From a virus: a stretch of DNA of 25,656 nucleotides. Shown one piece after another: positions 1 through 25,656 of this stretch (positions are counted from its first letter, which is position 1; each line of letters opens with the position of its first letter). Made by a program: the position numbers and the translations under genes. The stretch lies in IMG/VR virus record IMGVR_UViG_3300010430_006862, positions 1 to 25,656 of that record, one strand, 5' to 3'. A model generated the notes under the pieces. The model made no database searches. It was not told where the DNA came from and was given only the letters and a program-made list of their open reading frames with translations.

Positions 1-291
1 TTATTCAGCGGATCGGCAGGCGTCAGAAATCATCTCTGCATATCGACGCCAAGGCGAAACACCTAAGCGGCCCATGTCGCGTCGCATCTCATTCAGGGCG
101 TATCTTTGATCGTTAGGCACTTCGTCTGTAACCCGAAGGTCTTTGGCGTTGTCCGCCTCTTGCTCCAGTGTAACCACTAACGCCCACACGCGGGCCATTT
201 CATCCGCACACTCGAATGGAACGCGGTTCTTGTTCTCTGCCCCGACAGGCAGGCCAGCACATAGCAGGGTGACAATCAAAGCGTATCGCAT
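1..291 (-). CDS. small exported protein of unknown function
   Basis: A 96-residue protein beginning with a clear signal peptide: a short Met-Arg-Tyr start, the hydrophobic run ALIVTLLCAGLPVGA, and a likely signal peptidase I site after VGA. The mature part is charged and mostly helical-looking, with two cysteines (in FECADE and near the C-terminus in DACRSAE) that could form a disulphide in the periplasm. I place the start at 291, not at the longer in-frame start at 336, because AGAGGA lies just upstream at the right spacing. It is transcribed away from the packaging genes and is the only leftward gene at this end, so it could be a lysogenic-conversion gene or part of a neighbouring unit. I do not recognise the family. 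Confidence 0.6.
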   Translation of the reverse strand: MRYALIVTLLCAGLPVGAENKNRVPFECADEMARVWALVVTLEQEADNAKDLRVTDEVPNDQRYALNEMRRDMGRLGVSPWRRYAEMISDACRSAE

Positions 292-368
292 GGGGAATCC
301 TCTATTGGCATTCCTGATACGTAAGCACAGCGACACAACATCGCCAACCCCAAGGGCCAGCGTAGACA

Positions 369-683
369 GTGACAGGATGGCGTGGGCAGCAAGGCACCAG
401 ACAAGAGCGCGGATACGGGGCAGACTGGCAGCGGGCGCGGGCGCAGGCCCTCAAGCGCGACAACTACCTTTGCCGACCATGCGTGAAGCAAGGCAGGATC
501 ACCGAAGCAAAGGCGGTAGATCACATCAAGCCCAAGTCCCAGGGCGGCACGAATGAGCAGTCAAACCTGCAATCCATTTGCGATGACTGCCACGCCACCA
601 AGACACAGGCGGAGGCGCTAGAGGCGCGAGGCATCAAGCCGAGGCCGGGTTACGATGCAGGCGGCAAGCCAGTATGGGACTAA
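369..683 (+). CDS. HNH endonuclease (packaging-associated)
   Basis: A 104-residue HNH nuclease. The core is plain: Asp51-His52 in AVDHIKPKSQGG, Asn66 in NEQSNLQSIC and His75 in CDDCHATKT make the His-Asn-His site, and two CxxC pairs (Cys35/Cys38 and Cys71/Cys74) would hold a structural zinc. The start is GTG at 369, because an in-frame stop at 363-365 excludes anything upstream and there is no suitable later Met. In HK97-like phages a small HNH protein encoded beside the terminase assists the large terminase in cutting DNA at cos; the position directly before the small terminase fits that role here. It is probably a packaging factor, not a homing endonuclease, though the sequence alone cannot prove this. 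Confidence 0.88.
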   Translation: MTGWRGQQGTRQERGYGADWQRARAQALKRDNYLCRPCVKQGRITEAKAVDHIKPKSQGGTNEQSNLQSICDDCHATKTQAEALEARGIKPRPGYDAGGKPVWD

Positions 684-774
684 CGGGGGGGTAGGTCAAA
701 GTTGATGACCTATTTGGGCAGAACCGGCGGCTTCCCATTCCTTCGTGCGCTAACACAGAAAAACGAGGTCCCAA
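684..774. other. candidate cos / terminase-recognition region
   Basis: The 91 bases between the HNH and small terminase genes hold a seven-G run (685-691) followed at once by an inverted repeat, TAGGTCA (692-698) and TGACCTA (706-712), around a 7-nt loop. In HK97-type phages with an HNH gene next to the terminase, cos usually lies in this interval. The repeat could be a terminase binding site or a simple mRNA hairpin. The cut position cannot be read from the sequence. Confidence 0.3.
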
Positions 775-1233
775 GTGGCAAAGAAACCCAGAATTGACAC
801 AACGGCGGGCGCTATTGAGGTTGCAAGGGCATCTCAAAAGCAGATCGAGCCGCCGTCGAATATGCCTCTTACGTTAGAAGACCTGCCATTCTTTTCCAGC
901 GTGATTGATGAGTTCGCGCGGTCGGAGTGGACAGCGCACCAGCTTGAGCTTGCGGCGATGCTGGCAAAAAAAATGCGGCTTCTGCGGGATGAGTTGGAAA
1001 CCCTTGAGGAAGAGGGTTTTTCCCTGATCACTGAAAAAGGGTCTCCCTGCCAAAATCCCCGTCTTGGCGGGGTTCGGATGCTGGATACCTCGATCATGGC
1101 CACGCGGCGCACCCTGTCGCTTCACGCGCGCGCGCAAGGCGGTGAGGCGCGAGACGTTGGCAAGCGGCGGTCGCAGGCGAAAGAGTTTGAGGCCGATCTT
1201 GATGGGGATGACCTGTTGGCGAGGCCAAATTGA
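775..1233 (+). CDS. terminase small subunit (P27-like)
   Basis: A 152-residue protein that should recognise phage DNA and recruit the large terminase. The middle has an acidic helical segment (RLLRDELETLEEEG), followed by the stretch typical of P27-family small terminases: KGSPCQNPRLGGVRMLD and then a helix with RRTLSLHA. The C-terminus is acidic and ends at the large subunit. The start is GTG at 775, with GAGGT at 765-769 as ribosome site. Its stop overlaps the TTG start of the large terminase by four bases (TTGA), so the two are probably translationally coupled and made in a fixed ratio. Confidence 0.85.
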   Translation: MAKKPRIDTTAGAIEVARASQKQIEPPSNMPLTLEDLPFFSSVIDEFARSEWTAHQLELAAMLAKKMRLLRDELETLEEEGFSLITEKGSPCQNPRLGGVRMLDTSIMATRRTLSLHARAQGGEARDVGKRRSQAKEFEADLDGDDLLARPN

Positions 1234-2801
1234 CCCGAGGCGAGAAGGTTATAGCCTTTATTGAGCGGTACTGCTTGACGCCGGAAGGCAAGCATGTCGG
1301 CAAGCCGCTCAAGTTGTTGGAGTTCCAGAAGCGGTTCATCTGCGATGTTTATGACAACCCCGAAGGGACGGGGCGGGCATACTTAAGTATCGCCAGAAAG
1401 AATGGGAAAAGTGCGATAATTGCCGCAATCGCGCTGGCGCACATCGTCGGGCCGGAGGCGAGGCAGAACAGCCAGATCATCAGCGGGGCGCGGTCCCGCG
1501 AACAAGCATCCTTGGTCTTTAAGCTGATGCAAAAGATGATCGGCCTTTCGCCTGAATTGCGGTCAAAGAAAATCACGCGGATCACGCCTTCGCAAAAGAT
1601 GATCACGGGCGTTCAAATGAACGTCGAATACCGGGCTATTTCGGCGGAAGCGGGAACGGCACATGGACTTTCCCCAGTGTTGGCGATCTTGGATGAGGTG
1701 GGGCAGATCAAAGGCCCGACTGATGATTTCGTCGAGGCGATCACGACTTCGCAGGGCGCTCACGACAACCCGCTCTTGATTGCGATTTCTACGCAGGCAC
1801 CAACGGACAATGACCTGTTTTCGCGCTGGCTGGATGATGCGGAGAGCAGCCAAAGCCCGCGCATTGTAAGTCACGTCTACAGCGCACCGGAGGACTGCGA
1901 CCTACTGGACCGCGAAGCGTGGAAAGCGGCGAACCCAGCAATGGGAGAGTTTCGGTCGGTTTCCGATCTTGAGGATATGGCGGCAACGGCAGATCGGTTG
2001 CCTTCCGAGGAAAATAGCTTCCGCTGGCTGTACTTGAACCAGAGGATTGAGGCGACAGCGCCGTTTATCAGTAAGAAGCTCTGGGACACATGCGCGGGGC
2101 AGCTATTGCCACTTGAAGATGGCGCAACGCTATATGCGGGGCTTGACCTCTCTGAGGTGAACGACCTTACCGCCTTTGTGGCGGTGACACCCGTAACAGA
2201 TGAACTATTAGCCCCGGTCGAAACAGCGTGGCACGTCCACCCGACATTCTGGCTTCCCGGTGTCGGGCTTCGGGAAAAGGCTAAGGCTGATCGGGTTCCG
2301 TATGACCTTTGGCAGAAGCAAGGGTTTCTTGAGGCAACGCCCGGATCGACTGTTGATTATGAATTTGTCGCGGCGTTCCTGTTCGAAGCATCGCAGCGAT
2401 ACGACATTCGCAAAATCGCCTTTGACCGTTGGAACTTTCGGCACCTTCGGCCTTGGTTGTTGAAGGCTGGGTTCACCGAAGAACAGGTTGACGGTGATAG
2501 CGCGATATTTGAGCCGATGGGACAGGGCTATCAAAGCATGTCTCCGGCGCTCCGGGATTTGGAAAGCGCTTTTCTGAATGGGTCGATTGTTCATGGCGAT
2601 CATCCCGTTTTGGAAAGCTGTGCACGAAACGCAGTGGTTGACCGCGATCCAGCGGGAAACCGTAAGCTGGCGAAGAACAAGAGCAGGGGCCGTATTGACG
2701 GCATGGTTGCGCTGGCAATGGCTATGAGTGTTGCCGGGACGTGGGAAGCTGGCGGCGGCGGTCCTTCTGTTTACCAAACGCGCGGCGTTCTGACCCTATG
2801 A
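1230..2801 (+). CDS. terminase large subunit (ATPase and nuclease)
   Basis: The 523-residue packaging motor. The ATPase half has a Walker A variant ARKNGKS (residues 55-61) and a Walker B LAILDE (151-156) ending in the catalytic Glu. The C-terminal RNase H-like nuclease half shows its acidic residues in GLDLSEVND (about 306), AFDRWN (about 399) and RIDGMVALAMA (about 490). Length and motif order match the Terminase_1 (YmfN/HK97-type) family. The start is TTG at 1230, inside the stop of the small subunit. It should dock on the portal, translocate DNA into the prohead and cut it, with help from the HNH protein. Confidence 0.95.
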   Translation: MTRGEKVIAFIERYCLTPEGKHVGKPLKLLEFQKRFICDVYDNPEGTGRAYLSIARKNGKSAIIAAIALAHIVGPEARQNSQIISGARSREQASLVFKLMQKMIGLSPELRSKKITRITPSQKMITGVQMNVEYRAISAEAGTAHGLSPVLAILDEVGQIKGPTDDFVEAITTSQGAHDNPLLIAISTQAPTDNDLFSRWLDDAESSQSPRIVSHVYSAPEDCDLLDREAWKAANPAMGEFRSVSDLEDMAATADRLPSEENSFRWLYLNQRIEATAPFISKKLWDTCAGQLLPLEDGATLYAGLDLSEVNDLTAFVAVTPVTDELLAPVETAWHVHPTFWLPGVGLREKAKADRVPYDLWQKQGFLEATPGSTVDYEFVAAFLFEASQRYDIRKIAFDRWNFRHLRPWLLKAGFTEEQVDGDSAIFEPMGQGYQSMSPALRDLESAFLNGSIVHGDHPVLESCARNAVVDRDPAGNRKLAKNKSRGRIDGMVALAMAMSVAGTWEAGGGGPSVYQTRGVLTL

Positions 2802-2811
2802 AGGGGACTAC

Positions 2812-4065
2812 ATGGGAATTTTAGGTTGGCTGCGAGGCCCACGGGCGGCTGTCCAATCTGCGGGCGGCGGTGACGTAATCACCACGTCTGATGAGTTGGC
2901 GACGGCTATTCGCGCGGCGTCTATGGGGTCAGCGTCTGGCATGGTTGTCACGCCTGACACGGCGATGCGGGTTGCGGCGGTTTATGCGTGTGTCAGGCTT
3001 ATTTCTGGTGCGGTGGCAAACCTTCCTTTGCACGTAAAGCGCCGTGTGGATGCGGTAACGCGGGAAGACCTATCGAGCAGCGAAATTTGGTCTGTCCTGC
3101 GCCGGAAGCCGAACGGCTGGCAAACGCCGTCGCAGTTCAAGCGGATGATGCAGGCGCACATTCTGCTTCGCGGTAATGCTTATGCGCAGATTGTCCGGTC
3201 GCGCGGTAAGGTTTTGGCTTTGAACCCGCTGAATCCAGACCGGATGGAGGTCACGCAAACCGACGCGCTGGAACTGGCCTACGAATACACGCGGCGCGAC
3301 GGTCGGAAGGTCAAGATGCAGGCGAATGAGGTCATGCACCTTGTTGGGCTGACACTGGATGGCGTGACGGGCGTTTCTGCGATTACCTACGCCCGTGAGA
3401 CCATTGGCCTAAGTCTTGCCCAAGAACACCACGGCGCGACAACGTTCAAAAATGGGGCGCGTCCAAGTTCTGTTCTAAGCCACCCCGGCAAGTTAGGCCC
3501 CGAAGGAATGGAAAACTTGCGGGCAAGCCTGAATGCTTACCGCTCTGGTGGGGAAAAAGAAGGTCAGGCGCTTATCCTTGAGGAAGGAATGAGCGTCGAT
3601 CAAATGTCGATGACGGCAGAAGACGCGCAATGGATTGAAGGCCGCGAGTTTTCGCGGACTGACATTGCGATGTTCTTTGGCGTTCCGCCGCACATGATCG
3701 GGGACACCAAGAAAAGCACAAGCTGGGGTAGCGGGATTGAACAGCAATCCATCGGATTTGTGACCTACACGCTGGAAGACCACCTGACGACTTGGGAAGA
3801 GACGATCAACCGCGACCTTATCGCAGAAGAAGACGTTTACGCCCGCTTTAACCGTCGCGCCCTTGTTCGCGGCGACATCAAAACCCGTTGGGAAGCTTAT
3901 GTGAAGGCGATGCAGTGGGGTGTCTACAGCCCCGATGATGTTCGCGCCTTGGAAGACGAGAACCCGCGCCCAGATGGCGGCGGCGGCGTTTACTACGACC
4001 CACCGAACACGGCGGGCGGGCAGGAAGGAGAGGCCGATGAGCCTGAAGACACTCCCCAAGATTAA
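2812..4065 (+). CDS. portal protein (HK97 family)
   Basis: The 417-residue portal, which forms the dodecameric DNA channel at one capsid vertex. Family hallmarks include AVYACVRLISGAVANLPLHV (about 64-83), the stem/wing segment LLRGNAYAQIV followed by LNPLNPDRMEV, and a C-terminal clip/crown region with the GVPPHMIGD motif. The C-terminus is Gly/Pro/Asp/Glu-rich and probably flexible. The ATG at 2812 follows GAAGGGGA ten bases downstream of the terminase stop. Its 3' end overlaps the protease gene by 29 bases, so the protease ribosome site is embedded in the portal coding sequence. Confidence 0.95.
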   Translation: MGILGWLRGPRAAVQSAGGGDVITTSDELATAIRAASMGSASGMVVTPDTAMRVAAVYACVRLISGAVANLPLHVKRRVDAVTREDLSSSEIWSVLRRKPNGWQTPSQFKRMMQAHILLRGNAYAQIVRSRGKVLALNPLNPDRMEVTQTDALELAYEYTRRDGRKVKMQANEVMHLVGLTLDGVTGVSAITYARETIGLSLAQEHHGATTFKNGARPSSVLSHPGKLGPEGMENLRASLNAYRSGGEKEGQALILEEGMSVDQMSMTAEDAQWIEGREFSRTDIAMFFGVPPHMIGDTKKSTSWGSGIEQQSIGFVTYTLEDHLTTWEETINRDLIAEEDVYARFNRRALVRGDIKTRWEAYVKAMQWGVYSPDDVRALEDENPRPDGGGGVYYDPPNTAGGQEGEADEPEDTPQD

Positions 4066-18132: not shown

Positions 18133-18292
18133 ATCGATAAAACCAAGCACCGCCGCCCGTGCTGGAACATGGGCGACGGCTGGCCAACCGAAACCATGAA
18201 GGGGTTCCGAATGACGTGTTTATCAAATCGGCGTGACGATCTGATTCTGCAAGGCTTGAAAAACAGCCCCATAGTGACGGGGTGGTGAGAAA
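18133..18292 (+). other. gap after the tail fibre: hairpin and possible micro-ORF
   Basis: A stem at about 18151-18180 (GCCG CCCGTG, loop CTGGAA, CATGGG CGA CGGC) follows the fibre stop without a U-run. A possible micro-ORF runs from ATG 18169 (or 18211, with AAGGGG upstream) to TGA 18286-18288, giving 39 or 25 residues. Its composition does not identify it, and it may be chance. Confidence 0.3.
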
Positions 18293-18517
18293 GTGGACGA
18301 TATGACGCCAACAGACCGCCAAAAGCTGGATGACCTGCATCGCTTTTTCATGGAGCCGCCCCGCAAAGGTAAGCCCGCCCGCGCCGATCAAATCGACAGC
18401 CTTCTGTTGGCGGTCCAAACGGGCAAGCTATCCGTCAGGGCGCTCCTTTGGCTGGCGGGCGGTATCGCGGCTATCGCTGCGGCTTATACGCAGATCAAGG
18501 GGATTTTGCCGAAATGA
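18293..18517 (+). CDS. small membrane protein, holin-associated type
   Basis: A 74-residue protein with a hydrophilic N-terminal part (DRQKLDDLHRFFMEPPRKGK, about 8-27) and one C-terminal transmembrane segment (WLAGGIAAIAAAYTQIKGIL, about 53-72). This topology, cytoplasmic helix then a single membrane span near the end, recalls XhlA-type proteins of phage lysis modules. Start GTG 18293 or ATG 18302, neither with a strong ribosome site. The stop overlaps the next gene (ATGA). It probably works with the following membrane protein or as part of the lysis system. Confidence 0.6.
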   Translation: MDDMTPTDRQKLDDLHRFFMEPPRKGKPARADQIDSLLLAVQTGKLSVRALLWLAGGIAAIAAAYTQIKGILPK

Positions 18518-18969
18518 GCAGGAAGCGCACCTTTCGTTTGATTGATGCCTTCGCGTCCATTGCTGTCCTCTGGGCTATAATGGCGCTCGTCCCGGCAAAT
18601 TGGTTCTGGTTCGATCCGGGGCGGGTGATCGTTGGCGATGGCATGGCGGCGCATCCCCCCGAGGTTTCATTCACCCGCAAGATCAAGCGCGACACCCGCA
18701 TGAAGTACCAGGTGGTTATTCGTGAGGTTGGCGGGGCCGTGGTCTGTGACCCCGCCAGCGCGGCTTTTACTTATCGCAAGGATGCCACCTTACCGGACCA
18801 TATTGACCTGATTTGGTGGACAGGAAATGACGCAAGGTGCTGGCCGCGTGAGCCGGGAACGTACCTTATGGAAACGTGCTGGACCGTTGTTTCGCCGTTC
18901 TGGGGGCTTGTGCCACCCAAGCCTATTTGCCGGGAAAGCCCGCCGTTCCGGGTGACGGAAGGCAAGTAA
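18514..18969 (+). CDS. membrane-anchored protein with extracytoplasmic domain
   Basis: A 151-residue protein. A basic start (MSRKRTFRLI) precedes one transmembrane segment (DAFASIAVLWAIMALVPANWFWF, about 11-33), so the remaining 115 residues should lie in the periplasm. That domain is beta-like and has four cysteines (VVCDPAS, DARCWPREPG, METCWTV, PICRES), suggesting disulphides. ATG 18514 overlaps the previous stop; a longer start at 18448 lies in the previous gene. I do not recognise the family. It could aid lysis, block superinfection or change the envelope. The candidate RNA begins at its stop codon. Confidence 0.65.
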   Translation: MSRKRTFRLIDAFASIAVLWAIMALVPANWFWFDPGRVIVGDGMAAHPPEVSFTRKIKRDTRMKYQVVIREVGGAVVCDPASAAFTYRKDATLPDHIDLIWWTGNDARCWPREPGTYLMETCWTVVSPFWGLVPPKPICRESPPFRVTEGK

Positions 18970-19293
18970 ACCCGCCTGCATTCTGCGATAGCAAGTGCGT
19001 GGGGTTTCGGTAGAGCGCGGGACAGGCATCCTTACGGGTAGCCTCCGCCTTCTGCTCTGAGAAGGGCGGTCAAACATACCGCGCTCTGAAGGCAACACCA
19101 TCCCGTCTTCACGTTTTAAGTCGCAGCCGTGCCGCGCCAACGGTGTTGCCGCCAGAAAGCGGCGCGGTGCGGGCCTACAGCAGTTACAGCTTAATGTCCT
19201 TCGCAATGCCTCACCTAGTACGGGCATCCGACGTCACAGCGTTTCGCTCAGCCTGAGGGTGCTACCCCCTCGCTAGGGAACAATCCGCACCGC
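18968..19293 (+). ncRNA. candidate structured non-coding RNA (novel)
   Basis: The 366-base gene-free gap between 18970 and the lysozyme start is unusually rich in complementary segments. In order: AAACCC (18968-18973) with GGGTTT (19002-19007), enclosing a hairpin with a GATA loop (18978-18998); AGAGCGCGG (19012-19020) with CCGCGCTCT (19079-19087), enclosing two hairpins in a three-way junction; GGCAACACC (19091-19099) with GGTGTTGCC (19142-19150); GCGGTGCGG (19164-19172) with CCGCACCGC (19285-19293), enclosing hairpins at 19206-19227, 19238-19248 and 19250-19274. Three perfect 9-bp pairings in about 330 bases exceed my rough chance expectation of about 0.2. No convincing ORF on either strand, and no tRNA fold. 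Orientation is assumed to follow the flanking late genes. I cannot assign it to a known RNA family. Confidence 0.6.
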
Positions 19294-19335
19294 ACCTACA
19301 CATTACCCCACCCACCCATGAAAGGGAATAGCCCT

Positions 19336-19992
19336 ATGAACCGCATCACGTACCGCGTGGCGACGGAAGTGCTGTCGCACGAAGCAATCATCCGTCAGGC
19401 GTACAAAGACAGCGAGAACGTTTGGACATGGTCAGGCGGCATCACCAGCAAATCCGGCCATGACGTGACCCGCTATATCGACAACCCCCAGCCCATGAAG
19501 CGGTGCATCGAAGTATATGTTTGGGTGCTTCAAAAGTACGCCGATGACGTGACCGAGGTGATGGGCGATTTGACCGAAGAACAATTCGCCGCCGCTTTGT
19601 CGTTCCACTGGAACACGGGGGCGATACGCACAGCATCATGGGTCAAGCACTGGAAGGCAGGGGATATTGCCCGCGCCCGCAAGTCTATCATGAATTGGCG
19701 CAAGCCTGCTGAGATTATCCCCCGCCGCCAAAAAGAGCGCGACCTGTTCTTTAACGGCAAATGGTCAGGCGATGGCAAAGTGATCGAATACACCCGCCTT
19801 ACGTCGCGCCATACACCCGTATGGGGCAGCGCCAAGCGCGTCGATATTCGCAGCGACCTTTTGGCCGCTCTGAATGCCAACGCAGAACCGCCCGTCCGTC
19901 CTGACGTAGAGCCGCCACAAGAAGCGCCAGAGATGCGCAAGGGGTGGCTGGAAAGCCTCATCAAAGCAATCATCGGAGTGTTTCGCAAATGA
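19336..19992 (+). CDS. endolysin, GH24 lysozyme (T4-like)
   Basis: A 218-residue muramidase. Glu16 (LSHEA), Asp25 (AYKDSE) and Thr31 (WTWSGG) have exactly the spacing of the T4 lysozyme triad Glu11-Asp20-Thr26. Later family landmarks are AALSFHWNTGA and IPRRQKERDLFF. The C-terminus is a Pro/Glu linker and an amphipathic or hydrophobic helix (ESLIKAIIGVF), which may help association with the membrane. No signal peptide is obvious, so it should depend on the holin. ATG 19336 is preferred over ATG 19318 because AAAGGGA lies between them at the right place. The stop overlaps the next gene (ATGA). Confidence 0.9.
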   Translation: MNRITYRVATEVLSHEAIIRQAYKDSENVWTWSGGITSKSGHDVTRYIDNPQPMKRCIEVYVWVLQKYADDVTEVMGDLTEEQFAAALSFHWNTGAIRTASWVKHWKAGDIARARKSIMNWRKPAEIIPRRQKERDLFFNGKWSGDGKVIEYTRLTSRHTPVWGSAKRVDIRSDLLAALNANAEPPVRPDVEPPQEAPEMRKGWLESLIKAIIGVFRK

Positions 19993-20174
19993 GCAACCTA
20001 TCCCCTTTTGTCCGCATCGCCCTTCGCATAATCGGCGGCTATCTGATCGGCGCGGGCTATGCGTCCGAGGATGATCTTTGGATCTTCACTGACCCGGAAC
20101 TTGTCGGCGCTGTTGCGCTGGTAGTGTCTGAGGCGTGGTATTTCGCGGCTAAGCGCTTCGGCTGGTCGAAGTGA
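19989..20174 (+). CDS. holin-like protein (Pam3-gp28 type)
   Basis: A 61-residue protein with two hydrophobic segments, RIALRIIGGYLIGAGYA and LVGAVALVVSEAWYFAAK, separated by an acidic linker (SEDDLWIFTDPE). The pattern GAGYASEDD...FTDPELVGA...SEAWYFAAKRFGW is familiar from putative holins of rhodobacterial prophages. It should form the membrane hole that releases the lysozyme. ATG 19989 sits in the ATGA overlap with the lysozyme stop, and its own stop overlaps the GTG start of the spanin gene. An earlier in-frame ATG (19944) is inside the lysozyme gene. Confidence 0.78.
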   Translation: MSNLSPFVRIALRIIGGYLIGAGYASEDDLWIFTDPELVGAVALVVSEAWYFAAKRFGWSK

Positions 20175-24408: not shown

Positions 24409-25656
24409 CTACCTCCTAAGCCTAACCACGCCAGCACCAGCGCCCGTAACATGTTGCGCCCATGCTTCCATAACGGGGGCGCGGCGTTCCAACAGATCAG
24501 ATCGTGCGTAACTGCGTTCCACCTTATTGCCGACCGAATGGCCTAAGATTGTTTCGGCCACGTCATAAGAACAAACGTCATTGTCCTGCACCCACGTTCG
24601 AAAACTGGTCCGAAAGCCATGTGGCCTGCCTTCTTCGCCCATTTCACGCATGTGCTTGGACAAGCTGGAATCGGTTATTGGATTGTCGCGGTAGCCAAGA
24701 AAAACGAAATCATCCGCGATCATGCGTCGGTGTTCGATTATTTCCATTGCGGCGGCGGATAGCGGCACCCGGAAATCCTGCGCCTGACCTTCCTTGCCTT
24801 TGATGCGATCCGCCGGGATAGTCCACACGTTGCCGTCAAACTCTTCGAACCGTGCCAGCCTGCACCCTGACGCCCGAACCAGCGTCAGCATCATAAATTG
24901 CAGGCACCGGGCAACCCGCCCGCGTCCTTCTAGGCGCTGATACAAGTCGGGTGTATCCTGCCAAGGCGTTGCCGGAATCGGCGCGGTCTTGTGGTTCACC
25001 TCCCCCAACATGTGTTTGGCCGCTTCAATCGTGAAGGGATCGCATTCGAACCCCATTAGCTTCCCGTTGCGAAAAACGATGTGCAGGCGTTGGATGGCCT
25101 TTTCGGCGGTCGGGTGCTTTGTTCGCCATATCGGCGCAAGCGCGGCCTTAACGTCCGCAGGCTTGATGGTGCTGATCGGTCGATTGCCGATCTTCGGGAA
25201 TACGTGGGTTTCCAGCGGCGAAATCCAGCGGCCCGCTTTTCCTTCTTTTCGCAGCCCTGCTTTCTTCGCTTCAAGCACATCGAGCGTCAGATCGGCTAAG
25301 GTCGGATCGTCGCGGTTCAATTCCTCCAGAACGGCGGCTTTCTGCGCCGCGCGTTCGGTGATCGGGTCGCGCCCGCGTTGCAGTTCGTAATTCCAGCGAT
25401 CCCGCTCTTTCCGTGCGTCCGCAAGGCCGATGGCTGGATATGAGCCTAGGCCCATTTGCCGCCGCTTGCCGCCGAAGCTATACCGCCAAATCCATTTGCC
25501 GCCTGTTTCCGACTTGTGCAATTCCAGCCCGCCACCGTCGCCATAACGGCCCGGTCCTGCCTTCTTGATGCCTACCGCTGATAAAGCCAACTGTTCCCCC
25601 GCGCCGCCAGCCCGCCACTTAGCCCGCCAAACGGTCGCGGTACAGTAACGGACCAC
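24409..25656 (-). CDS. int: tyrosine integrase (P4/DUF4102 type), possibly 5'-incomplete
   Basis: At least 415 residues. An N-terminal arm-binding DUF4102 domain (GRYGDGGGLELHKS, KWIWRYSFGGKRRQMGLGSY) is followed by a core-binding SAM-like domain (about 115-215) and the catalytic domain: Arg261, Lys288 (RIKGK), His346-x-x-Arg349 (HGFRTSFR), His373 (LGHS) and Tyr383 (ERSYARSD). The position usually holding His before VPLS is Phe295. It integrates and excises the phage genome. The open frame reaches a GTG at the window edge; a TTG at 25590, preceded by GGGGGAA, would give the more usual short N-terminus. No att site is identifiable in the window. Confidence 0.92.
   Translation of the reverse strand: MVRYCTATVWRAKWRAGGAGEQLALSAVGIKKAGPGRYGDGGGLELHKSETGGKWIWRYSFGGKRRQMGLGSYPAIGLADARKERDRWNYELQRGRDPITERAAQKAAVLEELNRDDPTLADLTLDVLEAKKAGLRKEGKAGRWISPLETHVFPKIGNRPISTIKPADVKAALAPIWRTKHPTAEKAIQRLHIVFRNGKLMGFECDPFTIEAAKHMLGEVNHKTAPIPATPWQDTPDLYQRLEGRGRVARCLQFMMLTLVRASGCRLARFEEFDGNVWTIPADRIKGKEGQAQDFRVPLSAAAMEIIEHRRMIADDFVFLGYRDNPITDSSLSKHMREMGEEGRPHGFRTSFRTWVQDNDVCSYDVAETILGHSVGNKVERSYARSDLLERRAPVMEAWAQHVTGAGAGVVRLRR

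Follow-up and report, generated by a model that had tools for sequence, protein, structure and literature searches.

A non-coding gap with a stable 5′ half ahead of a phage endolysin gene, and its possible origin at a lysis-cassette recombination junction

The lysis cassette of the phage described here is interrupted, directly upstream of the endolysin gene, by a long gap containing several perfect RNA stems, which raises the question of whether this stretch is a large structured RNA or a by-product of recombination between lysis modules. The window, which is the whole stretch of DNA that was analyzed, is a virus record of 25,656 bases. On the plus strand, genes for terminase, portal, capsid, tail, and tail fibres precede a short lysis cassette, and the phage is probably temperate because an integrase gene is present on the minus strand at the right end. 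Its protein relatives are found in phages of Alphaproteobacteria, among them Paracoccus phage Pben1 and Rhodobacter phage RcapNL. Among the TerL relatives, the record IMGVR_UViG_3300010392_005399 (L028) shares 100% identity with positions 230–3798 of the window and probably represents the same phage; it reaches approximately 16 kb further left than the window and stops short of the lysis region.

The cassette opens on the plus strand with a small membrane ORF (18293–18517) and an uncharacterised membrane-protein gene (18514–18969), the latter having homologues in the loci L012 (59%) and L142 (41%). After the gap come the plus-strand endolysin gene (19336–19992), which belongs to the phage lysozyme family PF00959 and has its nearest relative in the locus L138 (62%), a Pam3-gp28-type holin (19992–20174), and an Rz-like spanin (from 20171). 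The endolysin start is most likely at 19336, not 19318, because the L138 lysozyme leader can be aligned with the Shine-Dalgarno-like motif AAAGGGA and the bases around it. The assignment of this motif and the likely start codon (19336–19338) to the plus-strand segment 19322–19338 is based on the sequence, the L138 leader alignment, and a local GGGAATAGCCC hairpin. With the endolysin most likely beginning at this position, the non-coding gap extends over 18970–19335 on the plus strand and measures 366 nt. The genes of the record had been described as packed end to end, which holds only roughly, as a second gap of 160 nt, at 18133–18292, separates the tail-fibre gene from the first membrane ORF.

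No coding signal was detected in the gap, where none of the six frames has a codon-usage score that reaches the 95th percentile for off-frame sequence. Open frames of 71–86 codons are present on both strands, and they matched nothing in Pfam or PHROG and nothing among phages by tblastn; a small-ORF scan found nothing, and a scan of viral contigs with an open frame running through the gap yielded no relative. A protein hidden in the gap was thus ruled out by codon usage and by the Pfam, PHROG, and tblastn searches. No tRNA was detected within the whole 25.6-kb record, and neither a terminator-like site nor a consensus promoter was detected inside the gap. A sigma-70-like consensus is not required for phage late promoters. 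The initial observation that no ORF, tRNA, or terminator accounts for the gap is therefore borne out by codon usage, protein searches, and the tRNA and terminator scans.

Three perfect 9-bp pairings had been noticed in this region by eye, and all of them are present exactly at the coordinates first given: AGAGCGCGG/CCGCGCTCT (19012–19020/19079–19087), GGCAACACC/GGTGTTGCC (19091–19099/19142–19150), and GCGGTGCGG/CCGCACCGC (19164–19172/19285–19293). The three stems are mutually compatible. Dinucleotide shuffles of the gap contain on average 0.21 stems of at least 9 bp, in agreement with the chance estimate of about 0.2 in the preliminary description, and three such stems occurred in none of 300 shuffles. 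Among 6,292 windows 350 nt long from other loci, nine (0.14%) contain at least three compatible 9-bp stems, and within this record such sets occur over the gap only.

The folding stability of the region is uneven. In the test set beforehand, which asked for a folding energy of the whole region below that of dinucleotide shuffles, the energy proved ordinary on the plus strand (z −1.30, 11 of 100 shuffles equally good) as well as on the minus strand (z −1.28). The 5′ half (18968–19152) reaches a z of −2.40 against shuffles, and an 82-nt segment within it (19008–19089) reaches −3.92, with none of 200 shuffles as good. This segment is among the best few of the 1,281 82-nt windows in the record, in a scan whose z values are noisy owing to the 25 shuffles used. 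The 3′ half (19153–19300) is ordinary (z −0.96). The unusual stability is confined to the 5′ half, chiefly to the three-way junction at 19008–19089.

When 18968–19152 is folded alone, a 5′ hairpin of the form AAACCC...GGGTTT (18968–19007, plus strand) precedes the plus-strand three-way junction, which is closed by the stem 19012–19020/19079–19087 and has inner hairpins at approximately 19024–19044 and 19045–19069. A long hairpin (19091–19150, plus strand) follows, its closing stem GGCAACACC/GGTGTTGCC having a pair probability of about 0.93. The stem GCGGTGCGG/CCGCACCGC spans 19164–19293 on the plus strand around the weakly defined 3′ half, and the region it encloses is not unusually stable despite the high pair probability of this closing stem (0.92–0.98). 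Folding the complete gap as one piece displaces the 5′ hairpin and offers the second stem an alternative partner. The initial interpretation is supported in part: the region is non-coding and its 5′ half folds better than chance, but the ordinary energies of the whole region and of the 3′ half speak against one large RNA in which almost all segments pair. A kissing three-way junction like that of the phi29 pRNA was also considered and rejected, as the two loops, UUAC and GCUCUG, are not complementary.

By comparison of gene orders, the gap coincides with a module junction, with the flanking modules having different partners elsewhere. In both L012 and L142, the homologue of the upstream membrane-protein gene is followed by another gene within tens of bases, and in L142 the endolysin lies on the opposite side of this homologue. 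In L142 (2501–4928), counterparts of the window's small membrane ORF and membrane-protein gene lie downstream of the lysozyme with their order reversed, which demonstrates module shuffling. The lysozyme relative in L138 is preceded by a different small membrane ORF of 98 codons, and 45 nt separate the stop of that ORF from the lysozyme start.

Two short segments of the gap recur in the L138 leader region (2440–2503). The first, CGGTAGAGCGCGGG, is identical to window positions 19008–19021; the second, a 27-nt block CCCATCCACCCCGAAAAGGGAACATCC, is 78% identical to its counterpart CCCACCCACCCATGAAAGGGAATAGCC at 19307–19333. The shared 14-mer arose in one of 5,000 shuffles for this single pair, which becomes a chance figure of about 0.02 by our estimate because some 90 relatives were compared. 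If the match reflects homology, it suggests that roughly 270 nt (approximately 19022–19300, plus strand), lying between the L138-shared flanks CGGTAGAGCGCGGG and CCCACCCACCCATGAAAGGGAATAGCC, are extra in the window phage relative to the 45-nt leader of L138. L138 possesses the arm 19012–19020 without a pairing partner. Under homology, the 5′ arm would predate its 3′ partner, and the stem 19012–19020/19079–19087 would therefore be less likely to have evolved as a unit.

Relatives of the gap were searched for in several collections, which may omit records very near the window. The check with Infernal proposed in the preliminary description retrieved no Rfam family, either at the gathering score over the whole window or at a permissive threshold (E up to 5) over 18500–19600, ribozyme models included. 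The blastn search of the gap against phages, plasmids, and E. coli gave nothing above chance, and that against 385 alphaproteobacterial genomes gave no homologue; the 10 short, mostly GC-rich matches in the latter (20–38 nt, per-genome E 3e-4 to 9e-3) are close to chance. A covariance model built from the single sequence 19008–19152 (R1) recovered only itself from the window, 119 retrieved loci, and the 385 alphaproteobacterial genomes. The pattern CTCTGAAGGCAACACC gave 14 matches in viral contigs, none of them a homologue. None of the 49 whole viral records with related terminases contains the gap, and no related lysis genes are present in the stretches examined from seven of them. A mosaic junction is preferred over a large RNA machine because no relative of the gap was found in any collection searched.

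Large RNAs of phages and prophages offer a natural comparison. Two of them, GOLLD and ROOL, frequently lie near tRNA islands (PMC12286853), and GOLLD, which often exceeds 800 nt, increases in expression during lysis (PMC12286853). The gap resembles them in being non-coding and phage-borne and in having several helices, but it has no Rfam match, no tRNA in the 25.6-kb record, and no homologues from which a conserved structure could be derived, and its 366 nt fall well below the length often reached by GOLLD. Among the GOLLD and ROOL features tested, the gap shares only its non-coding and phage-borne nature, so that the likeness to these RNAs considered in the preliminary description is unsupported. 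Hammerhead ribozymes flank prophage genes and, according to one proposal, cleave long phage transcripts to give gene-length mRNAs (PMC3088659). As a structured RNA between phage genes, the gap is similar to them, but neither the hammerhead nor any other Rfam ribozyme model matched at E up to 5.

Our leading, though tentative, interpretation is that the gap is a lineage-specific untranslated stretch at a recombination junction of the lysis cassette, whose function, if any, would most likely be exerted in cis. An L138-type endolysin module may have been placed behind an L012-type membrane-protein module by recombination, and the gap would then be transcribed inside the late polycistronic mRNA. 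The order and strand of the genes make it plausible that the gap is transcribed late, together with the lysis genes. In such an mRNA, the endolysin ribosome-binding site would be preceded by the folded 5′ half, comprising the first hairpin, the stable three-way junction, and the long hairpin. If functional, this structure may act in cis as a barrier, with consequences for how the endolysin-holin-spanin mRNA is processed or coupled, or for its stability. The interpretation draws on the non-coding character of the gap, its three stems in excess of chance, its stable 5′ half, the lack of such a gap beside homologues of the upstream gene, and the short L138 leader whose two segments flank the extra sequence. 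The location of the gap on the same strand as the lysis genes, and the lack of a promoter or terminator consensus inside it, are likewise in line with this interpretation; the ordinary energy of the whole region and the possibility that the L138 14-mer is a chance match (about 0.02 after correction) speak against it.

The cis effect, if the gap does anything, may differ from that of familiar lysis-gene leaders. In the T4 lysozyme gene (gene e) and lambda S, an untranslated RNA structure by the ribosome-binding site hides the start site. The gap likewise places an untranslated RNA structure beside the ribosome-binding site of a lysis gene, but it forms a long leader without a clear effect on Shine-Dalgarno exposure. 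This exposure is equal with and without the long leader, while the start codon and the mean of its surroundings shift slightly, and part of the Shine-Dalgarno sequence pairs within the local GGGAATAGCCC hairpin in all folds computed, with the long leader or with none. A leader that hides the start site was rejected because Shine-Dalgarno exposure is not lowered by it, and the simplest cis mechanism is thus not seen.

A recombination scar serving as functionless filler, with stems and stable hairpins that are either accidental or left over from older sequence, is nearly as likely as a cis-acting stretch. It agrees with the failure to find a homologue in any collection searched, with the ordinary energies of the whole region and the 3′ half, with the partnerless arm 19012–19020 in L138, and with the occurrence of triple stems by chance in 0.14% of windows, and it must also be considered that the region was picked after a reading of the whole record. 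What filler explains poorly is the conjunction of three stems against 0.21 expected and a junction with a z of −3.9 in a non-coding gap, which is jointly improbable.

The separate structured non-coding RNA of approximately 180–330 nt, made late in infection, that was originally proposed is unlikely. The same low probability applies to the form in which such an RNA, built around the 82-nt junction, would be a cassette before the endolysin in one temperate-phage lineage and be made during lysis. Three compatible perfect stems, a stable 5′ half, and a non-coding gap are what such an RNA predicts, but it has no Rfam match and no homologue, the promoter and terminator consensus are absent from the gap, the whole fold and the 3′ half are ordinary, and pairings compete when the complete gap is folded. 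The support for a separate large RNA goes no further than the stems. Even less probable is a small gene that has decayed or escaped recognition, such as a second membrane ORF, now lost, corresponding to the one preceding the L138 lysozyme: the open frames on both strands and the 98-codon ORF at the same place in L138 would suit it, but the codon-usage signal is absent, Pfam, PHROG, and tblastn against phages gave no match, and no frame-bearing relative emerged from the viral contigs. The untranslated stretch at a recombination junction, acting in cis if at all, remains our tentative choice.

Two other sites in the record are also predicted to fold well. The gap at 18133–18292 has a z of −4.02 on the minus strand versus −0.44 on the plus strand, and its minus strand ranks first of 786 windows in a 130-nt scan of the record. 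It carries terminator-like hairpins at the minus-strand 3′ end; the best Rfam hint is symR (E 0.12, far below the gathering score), and homologue searches with this gap found none. It is possibly a minus-strand small RNA, and as a candidate for one it is no weaker than 18970–19335. In the 82-nt scan, the most negative z (about −5.2, from only 25 shuffles) fell on 24848–24929 on the plus strand, antisense to the integrase gene.

At present, this case mainly illustrates that the presence of several perfect stems is not enough to make a gap a large RNA, and that long untranslated stretches can be left behind where lysis cassettes are joined as mosaics. If the 5′ half is a genuine element, it would constitute a lineage-specific RNA cassette at the entry to the endolysin-holin-spanin genes, and transcript processing at this site could set the timing of lysis.
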